In this document: in pieces, positions 12,035 to 30,232 of the stretch
How positions within the stretch are numbered: position 1 is the first letter of the stretch
How the letters are laid out: the number at the start of each line of letters is the position of its first letter
Source of the DNA: Synechococcus sp. A18-25c
GTDB taxonomy: Bacteria > Cyanobacteriota > Cyanobacteriia > PCC-6307 > Cyanobiaceae
Direction of reading: 5' to 3'
Assembly (NCBI RefSeq): GCF_014280035.1
Contig: NZ_CP047957.1
Span: 1,612,001-1,676,000, forward strand
Length of the DNA: 64,000 bases
The notes under the pieces: generated by a model
Database searches by the model: none
What the model was told of the DNA's origin: nothing
Seen by the model: only the letters and a program-made list of their open reading frames with translations
Program-made: the position numbers and the translations under genes

Positions 12035-14548
12035 ATGTCATTCACCCAACTCGGCCCCGACATCGATGGAGAGGCTGGCGGCGATGAAAGCGGCCACAGG
12101 GTTTCTCTCTCTAGCGATGGCAGCGTCGTTGCCATCGCTGCCCCCTTCAACGATGGCAATGGCACAGATTCGGGCCATACGCGCATCTACCAGTGGGATT
12201 CAGCCTCCTCTTCCTGGAATCAACTCGGTAGCGATATCGATGGAGAAGCCGCTGGTGATCGAAGCGGCCATAGGAGGGGGGTTGCTCTCTCAAGCGACGG
12301 CAGCGTCGTTGCCATCGGTGCCCAGTTAAACGATGGCAATGGATCAGATTCGGGCCATACGCGCATCTACCAGTGGGATTCAGCCTCCTCTTCCTGGAAT
12401 CAACTCGGTAGCGATATCGATGGAGAAGCCGCTGGTGATTACAGCGGCGGCAGCGTTTCCCTCTCCAGCGATGGCAGCGTCGTTGCCATCGGTGCCGCCA
12501 ACAACGATGGCAATGGCACACGTTCGGGCCACACGCGCATCTACCAGTGGGATTCAGCCTCCTCCTCCTGGAATCAACTCGGTAGCGATATCGATGGAGA
12601 AGCCGCCTTCGATGGAAGCGGCGCCTGCGTTTCTCTCTCCAGCGATGGCAGCGTCGTTGCCATCGGTGCCCCCGACAACGATGGCAACAGGCATACAGGC
12701 TCAAATAAGGGCCATACGCGCATCTACCAGTGGGATTCAGCCTCTTCCTCCTGGAATCAACTCGGTAGCGATATCGATGGAGAAGCCGATGGTGATCGAA
12801 GCGGCCTAAGAGTTTCTCTCTCTAGCGATGGCAGCATCGTTGCCATTGGTGCCACACAAAACAATGCGAATGGCAGCCAATCAGGCCATACACGCATCTA
12901 CAAGTGGGATTCAGCCTCCTCTTCCTGGAATCAACTCGGTAGCGATATCGATGCAGAAGCCGCTGGTGATTACAGCGGCACCGTTTCTCTCTCCAGCGAT
13001 GGCAGCGTCGTTGCCATCGGTGCCCACCACAACGATGGCAATGGAACTAGTGCTGGCCATACACGCATCTACCAATGGGATTCAGCCTCCTCTTCCTGGA
13101 ATCAACTCGGTAGCGATATCGATGGAGAAGCCGCTGGTGACAACAGCGGCGTCAGCGTTTCCCTCTCCAGCGATGGCAGCGCCGTTGCTATCGGTGCCCC
13201 CCACAACCATGGGCTTGGACCTGGAACTGGTGTTCGTGCTGGCCACGTAAGAGTCTTCAGTCTCGACACCACTGCGCCCACCTTCTCCTCAGCTGCCACC
13301 AACAACAACGGCACCAAGATCATCCTCACTTACGACGAAACGCTCTCCTCAACAACAGCTTCCACCTCTGCCTTCACAGTCAGCTCCGGCGGGGTAGCCA
13401 ATGCCGTCACTGCGGTTGCGATCTCCGGCTCCACCGTTGAGCTCACTCTCACCAACACCATCAAAAAATCGGAGACCATCACTGTTGCCTATAGCGATCC
13501 CACAAGCTCCAACGATGCCAATGCGGTTCAAGACTCCAGCGGCAATGACGCCGCGACCCTGAGCGCTCAATCCGTCACCAACAACTCGACCGTTGCAGCG
13601 ATCTCGTCCTCTGGCGGCTCAACATCTAACAACGCCTCAACCTCCAATAACGACTCAAATCGCGAGACAGAATCCGGCAACACTCTTCTCCTCAACGACA
13701 ACAACTCTTTCTCCGTCACAACTGGTGCCAGCAACGGCCTCTGGCTCACTCTCAAGGTCCTCTCTGCCAGCACAAGCCTGCAGAACACCCTCATCCTCAT
13801 CGATCAGAACAACAACGTCCTCGGGTCAATCGGCGCCACTCAGTTCTCCAAAAACTGCGGGTCTCACGCCATCTTCATTCCAGAAGGATCGACCATTTCC
13901 TTCCAGCAATCCAGCAACAACCAGCCCATCAACAACTCACCACAACACACCATCACCCAGCAAAGTGATGGCTCCTACAAGCTGCACCTCAACGACAACA
14001 CACGCGATAGCGATCACGATGATCTGATCCTCGACATCAGCTATTCCTCCGCCTCTCCCGATCCCAGCGCCACTTCCATGGCCAGCAAGCAACAAAATAT
14101 CCACGACGCCATCCTTGATCTCTCCTCCATCCCCGCAGACGGTCAGACACTCCAGATCACTCTCAACAGCGACTGCGCTTTCATCAATCGCTTTGCACTC
14201 GTCAAGCTCAACCAGCAATCCTCTGGCGAGTTCACCGTTGGCGGGTACAACAACACAGCTGGTAAGGCCTTTGACCAGAACGTCTACGACAGCATCATCA
14301 ATCCTGGCGGCAGCATCATCACCGCAACAGGCCTTCAGCAGCAGACCTTTGAATGGTCTCTCTCTGCAACAGACGCTGGCTTCTATGCACCTGTTCTGAT
14401 CAATCCAGCAGGTGACATCCACACCTACGGCTCCTCTCACGTCAAAAATCTCGGTAGCAACCTCTTTGCCTTTGAGGACGACAGCCAGATCTCAAACCCC
14501 GACTACGACTTCAACGACCTCACCGCCAAGTTTCAAATCATCACCTGA
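12035..14548 (+). CDS. large seven-repeat propeller protein with SwmB-like and DUF4114 domains
   Basis: Predicted extracellular or surface protein of 837 residues. Residues 4-405 are seven nearly identical repeats of 57-61 residues (QLGSDIDGEA, VSLSSDGSVVAIGA, GHTRIYQWDSASSSW), enough for one closed seven-bladed propeller of the FG-GAP kind. Residues 410-510 (DTTAPTFSSAATNNNGTKI, VTAVAISGSTVELTL, ITVAYSDPT) match the SwmB-type repeat known from the Synechococcus motility protein. The C-terminus (FAFEDDSQISNPDYDFNDL) is DUF4114-like, with acidic residues suited to calcium. There is no signal peptide and no clear ribosome site; the ATG falls at the edge of repeat 1. Export may use a type I system, or the 5' end may be lost. 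Confidence 0.85.
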   Translation: MSFTQLGPDIDGEAGGDESGHRVSLSSDGSVVAIAAPFNDGNGTDSGHTRIYQWDSASSSWNQLGSDIDGEAAGDRSGHRRGVALSSDGSVVAIGAQLNDGNGSDSGHTRIYQWDSASSSWNQLGSDIDGEAAGDYSGGSVSLSSDGSVVAIGAANNDGNGTRSGHTRIYQWDSASSSWNQLGSDIDGEAAFDGSGACVSLSSDGSVVAIGAPDNDGNRHTGSNKGHTRIYQWDSASSSWNQLGSDIDGEADGDRSGLRVSLSSDGSIVAIGATQNNANGSQSGHTRIYKWDSASSSWNQLGSDIDAEAAGDYSGTVSLSSDGSVVAIGAHHNDGNGTSAGHTRIYQWDSASSSWNQLGSDIDGEAAGDNSGVSVSLSSDGSAVAIGAPHNHGLGPGTGVRAGHVRVFSLDTTAPTFSSAATNNNGTKIILTYDETLSSTTASTSAFTVSSGGVANAVTAVAISGSTVELTLTNTIKKSETITVAYSDPTSSNDANAVQDSSGNDAATLSAQSVTNNSTVAAISSSGGSTSNNASTSNNDSNRETESGNTLLLNDNNSFSVTTGASNGLWLTLKVLSASTSLQNTLILIDQNNNVLGSIGATQFSKNCGSHAIFIPEGSTISFQQSSNNQPINNSPQHTITQQSDGSYKLHLNDNTRDSDHDDLILDISYSSASPDPSATSMASKQQNIHDAILDLSSIPADGQTLQITLNSDCAFINRFALVKLNQQSSGEFTVGGYNNTAGKAFDQNVYDSIINPGGSIITATGLQQQTFEWSLSATDAGFYAPVLINPAGDIHTYGSSHVKNLGSNLFAFEDDSQISNPDYDFNDLTAKFQIIT
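12047..13245 (+). repeat. tandem DNA repeat, seven units of 171-183 bases
   Basis: The string CAACTCGGTAGCGATATCGA (or a near variant) starts at 12047, 12221, 12401, 12575, 12758, 12932 and 13103. Spacings are always multiples of three, so the frame is kept. Long blocks between units are identical at DNA level, which points to recent expansion or gene conversion within the gene. Confidence 0.9.
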
Positions 14549-19632: not shown

Positions 19633-21231
19633 TCAGAAAAGCAGCTGTTCATGGCTGAAACCCGTTGGATCCCACCAACCCAAATCAGCCGAGCGATACG
19701 CAACCACATTGAACATGCCGCGCACATGGTGATAGGCGATATGGCAGTGAAAGGCCCAAACTCCTGGGTTATTGGCGTCAAAGGCAATGCGACATGAACC
19801 ACCTTTTGGCACCATCACAGTGTCACGCAGAGCACCGGACAAAGGCTCACCATTCAACTCAAGAATCTGAAATTCATGGCCATGCAGATGCATCGGATGG
19901 CCCATCGGCGTGGGATTGGTAATCACCATCTCCACCCGTTGACCTCGTTCAACCCAGTACGGATCTCGGTAGGGATAAAAACGATCGTTCAACCCCCAGG
20001 TGTACTTGGGAGCAGGGCCAGTTAATGCAATAGAAATCGTGTTATCCGCAGACCGTAATGCAAGAGGCTTTTGTGCGCGAAGTTTCTTGTCCTGCGTGAA
20101 ATCAAGAGCACCGGTCCACTGATCCGTTTGCGGCGCCAGATCAGGCAGGCCCAGCGATGGATTGCTGCGCAGCACCACACCACAGCGCAGATTGCTGCGT
20201 TCTCCCAAAGCCAGGAGAGGAAACACCCCTGGGGTCTCGGGCATGGTCACCCGCAGTGTCAACCGCTGGGCTAGAGCGAGTTGAAAAACCGAGCCGTTGA
20301 TTGGCTCCACTGGGTTGGCATCAGTCCGGAGGAGCTCACCCTCGAGTTCGCCCAAGTCGAGGAAATAGTTCATGAAGGCGCCACCTGCAATCCAGCGGAT
20401 GGCAACGGTTTCGCCAGGTTCAACGTCAATGATTTCAGGATCGTCGAGGCTGCGCTCATTGGCCAGAAGCGCGTCGTAAATCACATCGGGGGCCATCATC
20501 AGGACCCCTTGCTCTCGTGTCCAACAGAAGCGTTGACGCTTCTCATCCCACTGCTGCATCAACAGTGGTCGGGAGTCTTTCCAGTTGAAGGTGGCCAGGC
20601 TTTTGGCCATGGCTGTAGCGCCACCGCGCTCACCATCAACAACGTTTTGGAGAACTTGGTTGGCGGGAGTGAAGCTGAAGTCTCTGAGCATCACCGTGAT
20701 CGTTCGATCAGCCCATTGCTCCTGCTCTTCGTCAAGGATGACAAACGGCTCAGCCACGTAGCTCTGGGTTTGGAGGCCGTAGTGCGAGTGCATCCAGAAG
20801 GTGCCGTTTTGCACCAGCGGGTAGTGGATGCGTTGGCGTTCCCCTGGAGGAATCGGTGGTTGCGTGACGAAGGGCACTCCATCCATGGCATTGGGAAGAA
20901 TCAACCCATGCCAGTGCACTGTTGTCGGAACAGATAATCGGTTGATCAGTTCGAGATTGATCCCTTGCTCTTGTGACGTGGTGTACCCCCGCTGGCCGTT
21001 CCTCTGGCGAATGCAACCACGCACGACTGACCGCCCCAGAACCGTCAATGGTGCGGATGTGACTTCAAGAACAACGGTCTCGGCATTGCGCGGCCGCTGA
21101 AACGTCGGCTGACTGATGAACCGTTCCCAGGCGGACTGAGCCTTCGCACGCGTTGTCTGGAAAAGCTCCAGACTGGCAGTGCCAAACACACTGGCCAGAA
21201 CACCCAATTGCAAAAACGAGCGACGAAGCAT
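19633..21231 (-). CDS. multicopper oxidase, Tat-exported
   Basis: Laccase-like oxidase of 532 residues. The N-terminus MLRRSFLQLGVLAS is a twin-arginine signal. All copper ligand groups are visible: HWHG (in TTVHWHGLILP), HSHYG, HPMHLHGHEF, and the C-terminal HCHIAYHHVRGM with the type 1 cysteine and axial methionine. Such enzymes oxidise Cu(I), Fe(II), Mn(II) or phenolics with reduction of oxygen to water. It points the same way as the ABC, FtsX and propeller genes upstream, with a 247-base gap (21232-21478) that includes AATCATGATT near its start. It may supply copper tolerance or an oxidase step for that cluster. Confidence 0.92.
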   Translation of the reverse strand: MLRRSFLQLGVLASVFGTASLELFQTTRAKAQSAWERFISQPTFQRPRNAETVVLEVTSAPLTVLGRSVVRGCIRQRNGQRGYTTSQEQGINLELINRLSVPTTVHWHGLILPNAMDGVPFVTQPPIPPGERQRIHYPLVQNGTFWMHSHYGLQTQSYVAEPFVILDEEQEQWADRTITVMLRDFSFTPANQVLQNVVDGERGGATAMAKSLATFNWKDSRPLLMQQWDEKRQRFCWTREQGVLMMAPDVIYDALLANERSLDDPEIIDVEPGETVAIRWIAGGAFMNYFLDLGELEGELLRTDANPVEPINGSVFQLALAQRLTLRVTMPETPGVFPLLALGERSNLRCGVVLRSNPSLGLPDLAPQTDQWTGALDFTQDKKLRAQKPLALRSADNTISIALTGPAPKYTWGLNDRFYPYRDPYWVERGQRVEMVITNPTPMGHPMHLHGHEFQILELNGEPLSGALRDTVMVPKGGSCRIAFDANNPGVWAFHCHIAYHHVRGMFNVVAYRSADLGWWDPTGFSHEQLLF

Positions 21232-21478
21232 TCATCCAACGGCGGTTTCTTATTTCATAATCATGATTGTTGCTGGATCCACTTTGGCATCGAACTCTTT
21301 TTATCATTGACCCAACCAAGCAATGCTTTACCGACACAATCAAAACAGCTTGATTCAAAACAAGATGCGATCAGAAAATGATCTTTATTTCGATCAATAG
21401 TCTTAGAAATTAGAGGCCAAGGATCATTACCACCCAAAAGCAGCAATTCACTGGAAACACTGAACACCCAACCGCTGG

Positions 21479-22822
21479 TTAGTGAGGAGGCATCGGAATG
21501 AACAGTGGGGGATCTCCAGGAAAGTTGTTCTGAGCCAGTTTCTCGGCATCCAGGTAGATGGGCAGCAGATACACGAAGAATGAGTCCCGCCGCTCTACGG
21601 GATTGTGTTCAGGATCAGGACCATCGGCGATGGCATAGGTGACGTCAACGCGAACATGCATGTAGCCCGGAACCAATTCCGTGAAGCGCTCTGGCAGCTC
21701 GCGCAGTTCAAACTGCAAGGTTTCAGGCCGACGCAGTGGCACCACTCCAAGACTGGCGTCACTCCAGGTGGCTGCAAAAGGATTCCATCGATTCCCCTGC
21801 TGGACGTAGATCTGCACGTCTAAGGGCAGCAGATAGAGCGACTGCAAAACGTCCAGGTTCTCCACGGCGATCGTGCCCCGGTAGCCAATGGATCCCATTC
21901 GTTCCATGCTGGTCAGTTCAGCGGAGAGACCACTGAAAGCCAAACGCTGAATTTGATTGCCAGCTTGGCGAGCCACCTCCTTCCGGTGCTGAATGGAACG
22001 CGTTGCCAAACCGGCGGCTCCCGTCAGGGCCATGGCAACGGTGACGCCTCCCAGCAGCAGACGCCGCCGTTGCGGGTCGGCAACATCCTCGTGTGATGGA
22101 TCGCCTTGCGTGGCTGCTCTGGCGGGCGAGGACACAAAGGTTCTGCCAGGCTCACGCAGAACCCCTTGATCCAAGATCAACATGCGATCGCAGCGCTCTG
22201 CCAAAGCCTGGTTGTGAGTGACCATCACCAGTGCCGTGCCGGCGCTGGTGCATTGCTCCTGCAAGCAGCGAAACACGTCTTCTTGGCTGGCATCATCCAG
22301 GTTGCTGGTGGGTTCATCGGCAAGCAACAACTGCGGTCGACCCATCAAGCCACGAACAACGATGGCCCGTCGCTGCTCGCCTCCGGAAAGCTGAGAGGCC
22401 AGGGTGTCGCGGCGATGCTCAAGGCCCACGGCCTTCAACCTTTCCAGGGCCAAAGCCTCAAGGTCTGATAGCCCGCGCGCCCCAGCCAGCTGGGCCGGAA
22501 GCATGAGATTTTCAAGCGTGGTGAAGGCCGGCAAGAGACTGGTGAATTGGCTGACAAACCCGATGGGACCTCGCCTTAATCGACAGCGTTCCGCTGTCGT
22601 CAGGCTCCAGAGTTCACAGGGTTGATCCATGTGCAGCATCACCGTTCCCGATTGCGGACGGCACAGTCCCGCCAGCATGGCCACAAGCGTGGACTTGCCT
22701 GAGCCTGATCGACCGAGCACCGCCACCGACTCGCAGGAGGCGACACGAATGCTGGCATCGAGCACACCAACGTTGTCGTAACGCCGCCGCAGACCGCTAG
22801 CCTCCAAAACAAACTCACCCAT
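21479..22822 (-). CDS. ABC ATPase fused to a membrane-anchored extracytoplasmic domain
   Basis: Residues 1-225 are a LolD/MacB-type ATPase: Walker A GRSGSGKST, Q-loop FVSQFTSLLP, signature QLSGGEQRRA, Walker B LLLADEPTSNLD and switch histidine VMVTHNQ. A short linker leads to a hydrophobic helix (about 255-275, LLLGGVTVAMALTGAAG). About 165 residues follow that look extracytoplasmic and all-beta (VQIYVQQGNRWNPF, GYMHVRVDVTYAIADGP, FFVYLLPIYLDAEKL). This combination is unusual for an ABC ATPase. The ATG at 22822 is preferred because it overlaps the FtsX stop by 8 bases, a translational-coupling arrangement. It ends 247 bases before the oxidase start. Confidence 0.85.
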   Translation of the reverse strand: MGEFVLEASGLRRRYDNVGVLDASIRVASCESVAVLGRSGSGKSTLVAMLAGLCRPQSGTVMLHMDQPCELWSLTTAERCRLRRGPIGFVSQFTSLLPAFTTLENLMLPAQLAGARGLSDLEALALERLKAVGLEHRRDTLASQLSGGEQRRAIVVRGLMGRPQLLLADEPTSNLDDASQEDVFRCLQEQCTSAGTALVMVTHNQALAERCDRMLILDQGVLREPGRTFVSSPARAATQGDPSHEDVADPQRRRLLLGGVTVAMALTGAAGLATRSIQHRKEVARQAGNQIQRLAFSGLSAELTSMERMGSIGYRGTIAVENLDVLQSLYLLPLDVQIYVQQGNRWNPFAATWSDASLGVVPLRRPETLQFELRELPERFTELVPGYMHVRVDVTYAIADGPDPEHNPVERRDSFFVYLLPIYLDAEKLAQNNFPGDPPLFIPMPPH

Positions 22823-24026
22823 CGCTCTGCACCAACCGCAGCGGATCGGCACCCATCAACACCAACGCCGACAGCGCCGAGGCGATGGTCCCAACCACGG
22901 CGATCAAGAGCCAGATCACAAGCCCACAGCGAATCAATTGCTCCGTGGAGTATTGAGGCAACGCAAGACCAGCGTCGAGCAGGCGCAGAGCAAGCAGTTG
23001 ATCCAGTGGCTGACGCAAGAGCGATGCGAGCCCGAGGCCCAGCCCACTACCCGCTGCGCAAAGCAAGCTGGTCTCAGCGGTAAGCAAACCAATCAACTGC
23101 TGAGGGGTGGCACCAAGACTGAGCAACAACCCCAGCTCCTGTCGCCGTTCAGCGGCGATGCCAAAGGTGTAGAGGCTGATCAACAGCAGAACGCTGATCA
23201 GCAAAGGGACACTGAACGCACTCACGAGCTGAAGACTCAACCGTCCCCCTTGGCGCACCATCGCCAGCAGCGTCCGCCCTCCTGTCACCGTGGCATCAGG
23301 GAGATGAGCTAAGAGGCTGAAACGCAATCGCTCAACCGTGAACTCCGCGGGCGCCTGCACCAGCAGACCATTGATGCCAAGGGTGTCCGGATCACCACTC
23401 GGAATCAGGTTGTTGAGATCGCTGAGTGTGAAGAACAGGCCGTGCTCGTGGGAGGGAACACCGCTTGCAGCCAAGTGGCCGTAGATCTGGAACGTCCGGC
23501 CCTCTAGGCGTAGTCGATCACCAAGACGCCCCCGCAGTCGGTGGCCGAGAATGACCTGGCCATCTTGGAAATCGATCCCACGCTGCTCATCCAGCCAAGG
23601 CTGCACCGTGCTGTCGTGCTCAGGATCAATGCCGTAGAGAGGGATGTTGGCTCCATGAGACAGGCCCATGCTGGTGGCGAACTGGGCGTCGCCTCGTACA
23701 GCGCGTTGAGGGCTCACCAGGATCGACTGCGGCAGTTGCGATGCGGCCTCCAACACCTCCGCTGGCAACGCAGCAGTGTCAGGTTCAACAGCCAACAGTG
23801 CTTGCGTGAGATTGACCTTGGCCGTGCGATCGACCACCAAGAAGTCAGCGCCAAGGCGCTCAAAGCCAAGCTCCATGGAGTGCTCCAATCCCCCTAAATC
23901 GAGCACGCTGAGAAAACCCATGGCCGCCACAAGTCCGACCGCCGTGATCAACAGCATCGATCGAACAAGGCGGCGGCTGATGTTGCGAAGAACCAGTCGT
24001 GCGAAAAACACCCGTGCGACGTTCAC
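22815..24026 (-). CDS. FtsX-like ABC permease
   Basis: Membrane subunit of a MacB/LolCE-type ABC system, 403 residues. One N-terminal helix (about 21-42, SMLLITAVGLVAAMGFLSVL), a large extracytoplasmic domain (about 45-255) and three C-terminal helices give the FtsX topology. The FtsX signature ERRQELGLLLSLGATPQQ links the second and third helices, and ADPLRLVQSDG is the usual ending. Its ATG overlaps the stop of the propeller gene (ATGA) and its stop overlaps the start of the fused ATPase, so the three are translated as a unit. Such permeases work mechanically on periplasmic partners rather than importing solutes. Confidence 0.88.
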   Translation of the reverse strand: MNVARVFFARLVLRNISRRLVRSMLLITAVGLVAAMGFLSVLDLGGLEHSMELGFERLGADFLVVDRTAKVNLTQALLAVEPDTAALPAEVLEAASQLPQSILVSPQRAVRGDAQFATSMGLSHGANIPLYGIDPEHDSTVQPWLDEQRGIDFQDGQVILGHRLRGRLGDRLRLEGRTFQIYGHLAASGVPSHEHGLFFTLSDLNNLIPSGDPDTLGINGLLVQAPAEFTVERLRFSLLAHLPDATVTGGRTLLAMVRQGGRLSLQLVSAFSVPLLISVLLLISLYTFGIAAERRQELGLLLSLGATPQQLIGLLTAETSLLCAAGSGLGLGLASLLRQPLDQLLALRLLDAGLALPQYSTEQLIRCGLVIWLLIAVVGTIASALSALVLMGADPLRLVQSDG

Positions 24027-25693
24027 ATGGCGCAGGAGCGGGAGAAGGGCAGCTGATTCACGCTGGTCGGAACCAGAGTGAGGTCGTGATGCCCCCCGGG
24101 GTTGGGAATGAAGCCCACAGGCTCATCCTTCTCCACATCCAAAACAAACACCCCTGAGGCGTAGCGCTGGAAACCACCCACAGCGACGAGGAGAAACTTT
24201 CCGTCTGGTGTCACCGTGCAGGACTGCATGTCTTGGGTGATGTTTTGCAGTTCTTTGATCGGAGTCCATGTGGTGGTGTCCACCACCATGATTCCACTGC
24301 GGCCGGGTGCAGGATTCAGAACCACCAGGTACATCTTCTTGCTATCCGGAGTGAACGCCATATGGAAGGGGCTGGGGTAGCGCTTACCCCAAGTGGGATC
24401 AATGATCTGTTTGATCTTTGTCCATTGCGTCGGATCTGGATCTGAGCTGTCAAAAATACCGACACTGTTCTCAAGCCCGTTATTCATCATCACGAGATGA
24501 TTGCCATCAGGCGAGAAGCCAAGCTCATGACCTGGGGAATAGACCTTGTCGATCACCACCTGCCACGTGTCTTCGTCAATCTGTTCAACGGGGTAGGTAT
24601 CTGGAGACGCGCTCGGGAAGGCGCAGTAGGCCACAGGCATCATCCCGTTCTCCACGTCGTGAATCACGCAACCACCAAGCATTCGAATGATCTCGGCCCC
24701 CCATTTCCCACTGGGATGCCACACAAATGCATCGGCGCCTGTGAGTGCACGCACATTTGGGCCAGGGATTTTCCCTTCTGGCACAAACAGTTCACCCATG
24801 GGAACCATTTCCCAGTTGATCTTGATCCCTTTCGTGCCACGAAGATCAAATTGATCCGTCAAAGGATTGGGTTTAATACGTTGAATCTTGAGAACACCAC
24901 CACCACTCCAGCAATCAGCCAGATCTGGGGAGCTGCCCTCCCAGTCATAACGAAAGGCTTGAAGAACTTTCGTTGAAGCGCGATCAAACCAAGCAAAAAT
25001 ATCCTTCTGACCATCCGAGATGCAGTAGCTCTTGGCATCGGAGGGCCGAATGGTAGTGTGCACTCCCAAACCAAGGCCAGTGGTCTCAGAAATATTCTCC
25101 TCCAACTCCATCACGTCGCCGTTGAAGCGAACGCGATACATATTGAACCCTGGAGGTGGGTCGGTCACCGAGGTGGGCATCCCGTAAATCAGGGAGTTCA
25201 TGCCGCCCTGGCAACTGTTGATGAACTCAAACTCCTGATAAGGGTTCTTGCTTGGGAAAGCCTGAATATGGTGGCTAATGGGGTTGTAATCGCCATAGTT
25301 CCAATACCAGAGCGATGCCAGAGCACGGCCAGTGCCAAGATCCAAAAGATTGACACCTCCGCCCATCTTCTGCGGCATCACAAGAATGCGATTACCCAGG
25401 TCGTAACCATTCAGATTGAACTTAAGGTCGCTGATGTTGACGATTTCACGCTCAACCTTGAGACCCTTAGGTGTGATGTAGTCCTTCGGACGTTCCGTGA
25501 CGCGCACCCCCTGATCGGGGACGAGCTTGTGACCATCGCCGGTCGTAGCACCACTGCCAGTCGCCGTCGCCGAAGACGCCGCATCAGCAGGTTTTGCTAC
25601 CCCTGTCGTTAGCAGTCCAAGCATTGAGAAGGCTCCGAGCTGAAGGCTCTGGCGCCGGCTCATACCGGTTGACTGCTGCTCGGACTCCGTCAT
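24023..25693 (-). CDS. Tat-exported beta-propeller, N2O-reductase/thiocyanate-dehydrogenase-like
   Basis: Exported protein of 556 residues with a twin-arginine signal (SRRQSLQLGAFSMLGLL). The rest is propeller-like, with blades such as HELGFSPDGNHLVMMNN, FHMAFTPDSKKMYLVVLN and SCTVTPDGKFLLVAV. Histidines occur at H141-H142 (SHHIQAF), H212 (GVHTTI), H389 (GHELGF), H444 (PFHMAF) and H535-H536 (GGHHDLTL). That order resembles the copper-site histidines of N2O reductase and of thiocyanate dehydrogenase; the C-terminal CuA cupredoxin domain is absent. It is the first gene of an overlapping unit with FtsX and the ABC ATPase. The enzyme assignment is inference; a non-catalytic propeller remains possible. 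Confidence 0.7.
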   Translation of the reverse strand: MTESEQQSTGMSRRQSLQLGAFSMLGLLTTGVAKPADAASSATATGSGATTGDGHKLVPDQGVRVTERPKDYITPKGLKVEREIVNISDLKFNLNGYDLGNRILVMPQKMGGGVNLLDLGTGRALASLWYWNYGDYNPISHHIQAFPSKNPYQEFEFINSCQGGMNSLIYGMPTSVTDPPPGFNMYRVRFNGDVMELEENISETTGLGLGVHTTIRPSDAKSYCISDGQKDIFAWFDRASTKVLQAFRYDWEGSSPDLADCWSGGGVLKIQRIKPNPLTDQFDLRGTKGIKINWEMVPMGELFVPEGKIPGPNVRALTGADAFVWHPSGKWGAEIIRMLGGCVIHDVENGMMPVAYCAFPSASPDTYPVEQIDEDTWQVVIDKVYSPGHELGFSPDGNHLVMMNNGLENSVGIFDSSDPDPTQWTKIKQIIDPTWGKRYPSPFHMAFTPDSKKMYLVVLNPAPGRSGIMVVDTTTWTPIKELQNITQDMQSCTVTPDGKFLLVAVGGFQRYASGVFVLDVEKDEPVGFIPNPGGHHDLTLVPTSVNQLPFSRSCAM

Positions 25694-28075: not shown

Positions 28076-30232
28076 TTATTTTTGAATTTCAACCGAAGTC
28101 GGGAAAGGAATTTCAATCTGACGGTCCTCGAAAGCTTGAAGAATTCCCTCCTTCATTCTGGAAATCGAGTCAAAGAATGATCCAGCATCCTCGTGCATCG
28201 AATCAACCATAAAAGAAAAATCAAGACTGTAGTCAGACAATGTTGATAATCTGCATGCACCCAATTTTAATTGTGAATCTGATTCAACAACATCGCGAAT
28301 GATGCTGGGTATTTCCCTTCGCTTATCACTTGGAGTGTCATAAGCAATACTCACAGAATGTTTGAAATTATTGACAACAGCAATAATCGTTTTGATCTGA
28401 GCGATTAAATCTTGCTGGAGCTGGAGATAATCCTTCCAATTATCAGATGAAGCCTTGGCAAAGACAGTCAGTGCTGCACCACTGCTCCCCGCTTCACTAA
28501 AACTCACGACTGGCGAATCAAGACGACTACTGTTTTGGATCAAATCTTGAGTGCGCTCTACAATGGCATTGAGCTGACCAACTCCCAAACCACTGGGGAG
28601 ATCCATCTTCAATTCAATGCCCTGACTAATCGAGTGCTCAGAAAGTCCAGAATTCTGCTTCCGATCTGAAAAGTTTTTGATAATTTCATCTTCAACTTTG
28701 TTGTTCGGAATCGTGATTCGTCCAGACAATGTAATCATGTCAATCGATCGCAATCCGATCCTGGAAACAAAACCCATTTCATTACCAATTTTGCAAAACT
28801 CACCAACTCGAACAGGACGGTCAGACTGAATGGCAATTCCTGCAAATAAATTACCAAGTAGACGCGATCCGCCCAAACCTACCGCCAATCCTGGTACAGC
28901 CGAGAACGCGATGACTGCATTAGGTGGCATGCCCAGCCTTAACATTAGCTGATAAAGCAAAATCACAGCACCAATGGCTCCAAAAAATCGCGAAAAGGGA
29001 AGGATTAGATTACGCAAACGACGCTTTTCCAATTCTGATTGACTCCCTCTGAAGCGCATCACCCAAACTGCGCTCGAACCAGCCATTGCCTCAAAAAACA
29101 ACACAATGGCAACGCCAAACGAAATGTATGTAACCACATCAAAAAATGAGTTGGAATTTTGTAATGCTTCTCCAGTAAAATTGATTCGATTTGCCACGAT
29201 GGTTTTTGCAATCATCGATAGCGGACCAATTGGAAGGGCAAGATAAAAGCGTCTCCAAGAAAGTTCAATTTGACGGTTGGCAAATCGATTCAAAAGATTG
29301 CCAGAGCTATCAACATTCAACCTGTAAGTGTTCAAAAGCTTGAAAAGACAAGCCATCACAAGCGGTAAATAAATTAACGCAAGCAGAATCGCCATCAAAT
29401 ATTGAAGAAGACTTTGCTCTCCGAAGGGGATTTGCAAGAAGAGCTTTATATCTTCCGGCAAGCTCACATACCACTTTGGAGGAACAAGATATCCCGGAGA
29501 GTAGGAGAAATCTTGGTAAATCCTTGGCGATGCAAGGGGGTTTTCGGAAATAATTTCATCAGCAGTCGTATCGCCATATGTTTGCCTGACAAATGCATAC
29601 ATTCTATTAATATTTTCGAGCGTTTCTTGTGAGAAGAAATAATCCTGGTTTCCATTATCGTTCTTGACTGAACGCGTCAATGTGATTGCAGTCCCAGGGA
29701 TGGTCCAATCCGTTTGGTTCTTATTATTAGGGATATCAATTGGTTCTCTTGAGTGAGTAAATGCATAGTCAAGAATTTCTTTCAGCTTCAATACGGATTC
29801 TTCCAGTGTGTCCTTTCGAATACTCTCAGGGATGGATGAATCATCCATTGTTCTCTTCGCAACTCTGAAGAGCACTTCAGCTTCTTTGATCTCCTCACGA
29901 ACACTCTCACTCCAGAGCATCCCTGGACTTTCATCTGCTTTTTGACCGACGTCTCGAATAATTTCACCAACCCGCGCCATTACGGCATAAAAACGCAAAA
30001 GTGTCTGCTGAGGAGTAAACCCTGTGACCTTACCGAGATAGGACTGATCCCAGTTTGAGTCATAGATTTCAAGCTGGTCATAAAACGGTTGTTCCTCAAG
30101 TGGAATGATGGTTTTTTCTTCTCCTAAACCGAGCGCAATCAACGTCTCGGCAGAGTGGGCATAGGAGAATGATGTCAAACCAATCAAAAGACCCAGAGCA
30201 ATACCCCAAAAAAAGCGCAGAGATTTTTTCAT
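28076..30232 (-). CDS. large MscS-family mechanosensitive channel
   Basis: Protein of 718 residues, much longer than the minimal channel. A signal peptide (FWGIALGLLIGLTSFSYAHS) is followed by about 250 extracytoplasmic residues, partly coiled, then about five membrane helices. The pore-lining helix with small residues is AVIAFSAVPGLAVGLGGSRLLGNLFAG, and the MscS beta domain follows (QSDRPVRVGEFCKIGNEMGFVSRIGLRSIDMITLSGRITIPN). Closest in layout to the large YnaI/plant MSL-type members. Expected role is relief of osmotic shock. The gene is AT-rich relative to the window and stands alone with gene-free flanks. Confidence 0.9.
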   Translation of the reverse strand: MKKSLRFFWGIALGLLIGLTSFSYAHSAETLIALGLGEEKTIIPLEEQPFYDQLEIYDSNWDQSYLGKVTGFTPQQTLLRFYAVMARVGEIIRDVGQKADESPGMLWSESVREEIKEAEVLFRVAKRTMDDSSIPESIRKDTLEESVLKLKEILDYAFTHSREPIDIPNNKNQTDWTIPGTAITLTRSVKNDNGNQDYFFSQETLENINRMYAFVRQTYGDTTADEIISENPLASPRIYQDFSYSPGYLVPPKWYVSLPEDIKLFLQIPFGEQSLLQYLMAILLALIYLPLVMACLFKLLNTYRLNVDSSGNLLNRFANRQIELSWRRFYLALPIGPLSMIAKTIVANRINFTGEALQNSNSFFDVVTYISFGVAIVLFFEAMAGSSAVWVMRFRGSQSELEKRRLRNLILPFSRFFGAIGAVILLYQLMLRLGMPPNAVIAFSAVPGLAVGLGGSRLLGNLFAGIAIQSDRPVRVGEFCKIGNEMGFVSRIGLRSIDMITLSGRITIPNNKVEDEIIKNFSDRKQNSGLSEHSISQGIELKMDLPSGLGVGQLNAIVERTQDLIQNSSRLDSPVVSFSEAGSSGAALTVFAKASSDNWKDYLQLQQDLIAQIKTIIAVVNNFKHSVSIAYDTPSDKRREIPSIIRDVVESDSQLKLGACRLSTLSDYSLDFSFMVDSMHEDAGSFFDSISRMKEGILQAFEDRQIEIPFPTSVEIQK

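Follow-up and report, generated by a model that had tools for sequence, protein, structure and literature searches.

What does a Tat-exported (twin-arginine translocation) propeller with the look of a copper enzyme do in Synechococcus sp. A18-25c, and do the transporter genes beside it serve its copper site? The question is raised by a gene cluster in a 64,000-nucleotide stretch of this genome (here called the window; RefSeq assembly GCF_014280035.1, contig NZ_CP047957.1, positions 1,612,001 to 1,676,000). The host genome is a single contig of 2.51 Mb with 99.95% completeness. An initial annotation, made from the sequence alone, described four minus-strand genes for a propeller with a Tat signal, an FtsX permease, an ATP-binding cassette (ABC) ATPase and a complete multicopper oxidase. 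All four open reading frames (ORFs) are present and the twin-arginine motif lies in the N-terminal region of the propeller (Table 1). We favor, with a probability of about one half, the reading of the propeller as a copper oxidoreductase of the periplasm, within the thiocyanate dehydrogenase (TcDH) superfamily, with a rebuilt copper site and a dedicated maturation cassette, in which we infer the copper binding, the catalysis, the substrate and the role of the cassette.

Family and fold of the propeller

The propeller shares 44 to 46% sequence identity with the two characterized TcDHs (Thioalkalivibrio paradoxus, 5F75/6UWE; Pelomicrobium methylotrophicum, 8Q9X) and aligns with them over its whole length; a Tat signal is a further shared feature. 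A phmmer search against PDB sequences gave nine strong matches, all of them TcDH (E values of 5.1e-136 to 2.5e-129); a Pfam scan found no model above cut-off. An AlphaFold2 model built from a 21-row alignment has a mean predicted local distance difference test (pLDDT) score of 77, which is low for residues 1-90 and high for most of the core. The top 12 solved structures for this model are all TcDH (Z 55.5-57.7, root-mean-square deviation (rmsd) 1.8-2.1, 460-464 residues), the best superposition being with 8Q9X (Z 57.7, rmsd 1.9, 462 residues). Other propellers score from Z 32.5 downward. Membership of the TcDH superfamily is as good as certain, and the family guess of the initial annotation was right, since the top structural matches are all TcDH and nitrous oxide (N2O) reductase lies much lower.

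The same annotation had also likened the propeller to N2O reductase. The similarity of fold is real but distant (Z 27.8, 17% identity), about half the score of the TcDH structures. The profile of clade III (lactonase-type) NosZ, L-NosZ, gave 17.2 bits, far under its cut-off of 700, and no CuA domain was matched in Pfam or NCBIfam, as the annotation had noted. We therefore rejected a NosZ identity. N2O reductase uses an ABC system for site assembly, NosDFY, with a NosY-type permease, and a CuZ-type enzyme matured by a similar system could in principle be encoded here. The permease in the window is of the FtsX/MacB type, not the NosY type, and we regard this explanation as highly improbable.

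A glutamine in the TcDH active site

The Fig 4 legend of PMC6504805 catalogues 13 TcDH active-site residues, 12 of which are kept in the propeller (Lys109, His141, His142, Gln162, His212, Glu295, Asp321, His389, His444, His536, Asp537 and Arg552). The thirteenth, His482, is replaced by Gln490 (codon CAG), which the initial annotation had not noted. His141, 142, 212, 389, 444 and 536 pair with TcDH His135, 136, 206, 381, 437 and 528, so that the histidines picked out by the initial annotation, and the spacing of about 6-8 residues that it gave, agree with an alignment offset of +6 to +8. The site of TcDH holds three copper ions and is unusual (PMC9456337). By PDB titles, the same change has been engineered at the aligned position in both characterized TcDHs, as 6SJI (His482Gln) and 8YU5/8YU6 (H447Q). 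Published activity of these variants was not found among the literature matches listed; the Gln variant of tp TcDH is reportedly impaired. Unlike the engineered variants, the glutamine in the window is natural, is fixed in a subfamily and is joined by other changes, as described below.

Two branches of propellers

Relatives were collected by scanning genome contigs for peptide patterns of the window propeller, the glutamine being part of one pattern; this gave 38 loci. We supplemented these with a locus on a Methylocella tundrae plasmid and with the strong matches of broader searches in the window's own genus and, using a profile made from 14 Gln and 2 His rows, in Pseudomonadota, the class of genome G609 and Nitrospirota. 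The propeller is found in 3 of 31 genomes of the window's genus and was matched in 1 of 386 in a sample of its phylum. Matches were also found in 13 of 398 Pseudomonadota genomes, with only two strong ones (one in the centre genome of the sample), in 3 of 385 genomes of the G609 class and in 5 of 245 genomes of the phylum of a metagenome-assembled genome (MAG) titled Nitrospirota, the last two counts including the centre genome. On plasmids, relatives occurred in two Methylocella tundrae records only, and two scans of viral contigs found none. L037 and L038, which are fragments from a single MAG, were excluded, leaving an alignment of 49 rows.

Site 482 is Gln in all 43 rows of the window's subfamily and His in all six rows of the TcDH branch. 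Two of the Gln rows (L034 and L081) are identical and probably come from one genome, which leaves 42 distinct. Gln-type hosts are cyanobacteria, Reyranella and other alphaproteobacteria, and one Nitrospirota; the His rows are the two characterized TcDHs and four proteins of the Nitrospirota sample. The other 13 positions checked, i.e., the 12 listed residues and Tyr164, are identical in all 49 rows. The ligand conservation that the initial annotation asked about holds in these 49 rows, except at site 482.

The Gln and His sets are split by a branch with 100/100 support in the 49-row tree, the window propeller lying opposite the characterized TcDHs. With columns 470-490 removed, the branch keeps 100/99 support (18 of the 49 rows); when two distant Gln rows were taken out as well (16 of the 49 rows), a quick tree without bootstrap still held the sets apart. 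The tree is unrooted, with no usable outgroup. At least nine sites hold a residue that every one of the 43 Gln rows shares and that is unseen in the His rows (Asn159, Met296, Met299, Gly319, Glu390, Leu459, Ser466, Gln490 and Arg510), and a one-residue insertion at 484, six positions before Gln490, is common to the Gln rows. Several of these sites adjoin active-site residues in sequence (Glu295, His389 and Asp321); Met296 and Met299, invariant methionines of the Gln rows, come just after Glu295. The propeller belongs to a sister subfamily of TcDH and is likely not a standard TcDH.

One might take it for a copper-binding propeller without catalysis, serving as store, sensor or scaffold now that the catalytic histidine is gone, and the absence of one listed active-site residue from all 43 rows would fit. 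The other residues, including those at TcDH positions Lys103, Glu288 and Arg544, are invariant in 49 rows from three phyla, which is unusual for a dead enzyme, and the cassette has been retained as well. We consider a non-catalytic role improbable.

By propeller gene, Synechococcus CS-1325 and Cyanobium Aljojuca 7A6 come closest among named organisms. The propeller of L003, a locus filed under 'bacterium TMED88', is 95% identical to that of the window and its neighbors are 75 to 82% identical to window genes; the contig probably comes from a Synechococcus and was misassigned to this MAG during binning. The MAG titles of two Gln-type loci (L016 and L025) contain SCN18 and SCNpilot, which we take to refer to thiocyanate bioreactors.

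Thiocyanate and cyanase

The initial annotation had suggested thiocyanate, or another sulfur or nitrogen compound, as the substrate. A working TcDH, with Gln490 serving the third copper, would convert thiocyanate to cyanate and sulfur, and cyanase would then free ammonium for nitrogen nutrition. Every other listed active-site residue is kept, and a cyanase gene is present in the window's own genome, in each of the three genus members with the propeller and in 13 of the 18 Gln-type hosts searched for it. Cyanase is also found in 27 of the 31 genus genomes regardless of the propeller, and in none of four His-type hosts. It was not found in CS-1325, Aljojuca 7A6 and the TMED88 MAG (G412-G414), which consist of many contigs and may be incomplete. 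Given these counts, cyanase neither supports nor excludes a route from thiocyanate to cyanate. PMC9361551 describes cyanate hydratase as common in marine picocyanobacteria. The Pfam scan showed no sulfur-handling gene in the window's cassette. The histidine changed in the engineered variants is lost in 43 of 43 rows and residues beside other ligands are changed, which weakens the case for thiocyanate: it is possible as the substrate but not favored, and a working TcDH seems rather unlikely.

Among the literature matches listed, none dealt with TcDH-like genes in Synechococcus, Reyranella or Methylocella. PMC6504805 aligns 'various homologs' with more than 30% identity, and Gln-type relatives may already be displayed in that alignment.

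A conserved permease/ATPase cassette with an MPPH-tailed protein

The propeller and FtsX genes overlap by four bases, and the FtsX and ATPase genes by eight if the ATPase starts at ATG 22822, which is probable from the start context (the whole ATPase ORF spans 21479-22852). With these successive overlaps, the overlapping ends seen in the initial annotation, the three genes look translationally coupled. The LolD profile matched the ATPase with an E value of 4.8e-52, yet under LolD's own cut-off. An FtsX permease with a LolD-like ATPase is the arrangement of MacB/LolCDE-type ABC systems; unlike these, the ATPase gene of the window has an extra C-terminal part of 212 residues and is genetically tied to the propeller. 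This part, absent from the initial annotation, is the third component of the cassette, a membrane-anchored immunoglobulin-like (Ig-like) domain that ends in MPPH. It is fused to the ATPase in cyanobacteria, whereas Methylocella and Reyranella encode it as a protein of its own; a single reading frame of the distant G609 locus matches both ATPase and Ig-like domain. A long N-terminal helix followed by an Ig-like sandwich is predicted (model pLDDT 85.4). Pfam gave only scattered weak matches among 18 members scanned (window copy E 0.24, under the cut-off).

In 39 propeller loci tested with the window proteins, FtsX was matched in 37, the ATPase in 36 and the C-terminal domain in 35; several contigs end early. 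The cassette is found in cyanobacteria, alphaproteobacteria and the G609 locus. When 244 genomes sampled from the window's phylum were searched, the Ig-like domain was matched solely in the window's own genome. The MPPH end is present in 42 of 44 Ig-like proteins (PMPPH in 41). Of 49 loci examined, among which L034/L098 and L036/L078 are probable duplicates, 42 have the Ig-like domain and all 42 encode at least one protein ending in MPPH; of the other seven, five are cut short or contain a fragment, and two represent a single Nitrospirota contig.

Similar genes accompany the propellers of the TcDH branch. An FtsX relative follows the propeller in all four His-type loci of the Nitrospirota sample. 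Two of these (L093 and L095) have two permease/ATPase pairs and also encode two Ig-like proteins, of which one has the MPPH end; in L094 and L096 the contigs stop before the second pair and Ig-like region (FtsX and ATPase of L094 were found by tblastn). L093 and L095 are in this respect like a thiocyanate-induced operon of Thioalkalivibrio, described in PMC5744179 and PMC5328954, with two permease/ATPase pairs and two hypothetical proteins, compared to one pair in the window, and PMC5744179 states that the assembly of the TcDH-type copper site is still to be determined. The cassette thus goes with Gln-type and His-type propellers alike, in keeping with a part in building the copper site; most likely it loads copper or matures the site. 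Of the unit proposed by the initial annotation, the conserved FtsX/ATPase pair is supported; the multicopper oxidase does not belong to the unit (see below).

Other features of these loci were observed. The G609 permease (L074:7668-9131) has a His-rich loop, HHHHHMGAEC, in a part taken to be periplasmic. In 8 of 11 loci compared, the propeller gene stands next to a gene for a membrane-anchored protein whose match to J-domain/Pam16 is weak and under Pfam cut-offs (L013:8790-9512, L002:10743-11477 and L027:8961-9635); the orientation of this gene differs between Methylocella and Reyranella. Two small proteins of 103 and 108 residues (L074:9020-9331 and L013:8444-8770) look alike by eye and matched no Pfam family; in the G609 locus the gene separates propeller and permease, and in Reyranella it is upstream of the propeller. 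Genes for TauD-family dioxygenases (one scanned) occur near the cassette in 6 of the 11 loci, e.g., L009:14311-15186, perhaps by chance.

A possible copper enzyme with its own loading system

A copper enzyme of altered chemistry with an ABC-driven copper-loading cassette is plausible. The propeller would be exported by the Tat route to the periplasm, where its copper site would be rebuilt by Gln in place of His482, the insertion six positions before it and changed residues beside other ligands, Met296 and Met299 included. It would probably oxidize a small sulfur or nitrogen compound by two electrons, either instead of thiocyanate or in addition to it. The ATPase would drive the FtsX permease, and the Met/His tail (MPPH) of the membrane-anchored Ig-like protein may hold or deliver copper.

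Several points weigh against this reading. Gln490 need not abolish thiocyanate oxidation, because glutamine can ligate metals. Placing Met296 and Met299 close to the copper site is a suggestion from sequence, and they may lie there. The sample of the His branch is small, with four of its six rows from one phylum sample. On the contig of the Nitrospirota Gln-type locus (L036/L078), neither FtsX nor the ATPase nor an Ig-like protein was found. By eye, the best-conserved FtsX columns showed no clear copper motif, and the structural matches of the Ig-like domain were middling only (best Z 9.0).

A His to Gln change studied by engineering in TcDH is naturally fixed in a sister branch with the other listed residues kept, and the role of this site is therefore open to study by comparing natural enzymes. 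The conserved MPPH-tailed partner is a concrete candidate for a factor in the assembly of this kind of copper site. Periplasmic copper chemistry is suggested in picocyanobacteria and methanotroph relatives, of which no description was found in the literature searched. More tentatively, these propellers could form a widespread, overlooked subfamily in picocyanobacteria, Reyranella, methanotrophs and Nitrospirota, with a natural Gln/Met-modified center and a reaction of its own, served by a new copper-insertion machine in which a MacB-like ABC motor works with an Ig-like protein whose MPPH tail delivers copper.

Neighboring genes

Table 1. Positions of the propeller, the cassette and the adjacent oxidase gene in the window
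Feature	Position	Strand	Evidence or remark
TcDH-like propeller, Gln-type, 556 aa, Tat signal	24023-25693	minus	phmmer to PDB TcDH; fold Z 57.7 to 8Q9X
Propeller N-terminal region with twin-arginine motif SRRQSLQLG, about residues 1-39	25577-25693	minus	direct reading of translation
Codon CAG of Gln490, aligned with TcDH His482	24224-24226	minus	alignment
FtsX/MacB-type ABC permease, 403 aa	22815-24026	minus	Pfam FtsX E 3.9e-10, MacB_PCD 6.1e-6
ABC ATPase domain, LolD/MacB-like, probable start ATG 22822	22118-22822	minus	Pfam ABC_tran 3.5e-26; border at 22117/22118 set by us
ATPase-fused C-terminal part: membrane helix and Ig-like domain, candidate copper chaperone	21479-22117	minus	alignment; model
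C-terminal MPPH tail	21482-21493	minus	MPPH-ending protein in 42 of 42 loci with the domain
Multicopper oxidase	19633-21231	minus	Pfam Cu-oxidase_3, Cu-oxidase, Cu-oxidase_2; neighbor, not core

The multicopper oxidase is complete, as had been annotated, with three cupredoxin domains and the motifs HWHG, HSHY and HPMHLHGH. Matches to it occur in 11 of the 31 genus genomes, one of them short with stops, and in only two of the three propeller genomes: it is close by in G390 and missing in G402, whose propeller is 97% identical. We rejected it as a core member of the unit, its distribution not being tied to the propeller. Only in some cyanobacterial loci is the island flanked by an indolepyruvate-decarboxylase-like gene and flavin adenine dinucleotide (FAD) oxidases. 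No transfer RNA gene that could mark an island was found within the 64-kb window. A SomB-type iron-uptake porin, a cyanobacterial type, is encoded in the window; it agrees with the closest named relatives in pointing to a cyanobacterial host. An MscS-type channel gene (28076-30232) has 42.4% G+C compared to 55.6% for the window and may therefore have been acquired recently. A protein of 837 residues encoded at 12035-14548 is made of repeats of the type WNQLGSDIDGEAAGD.

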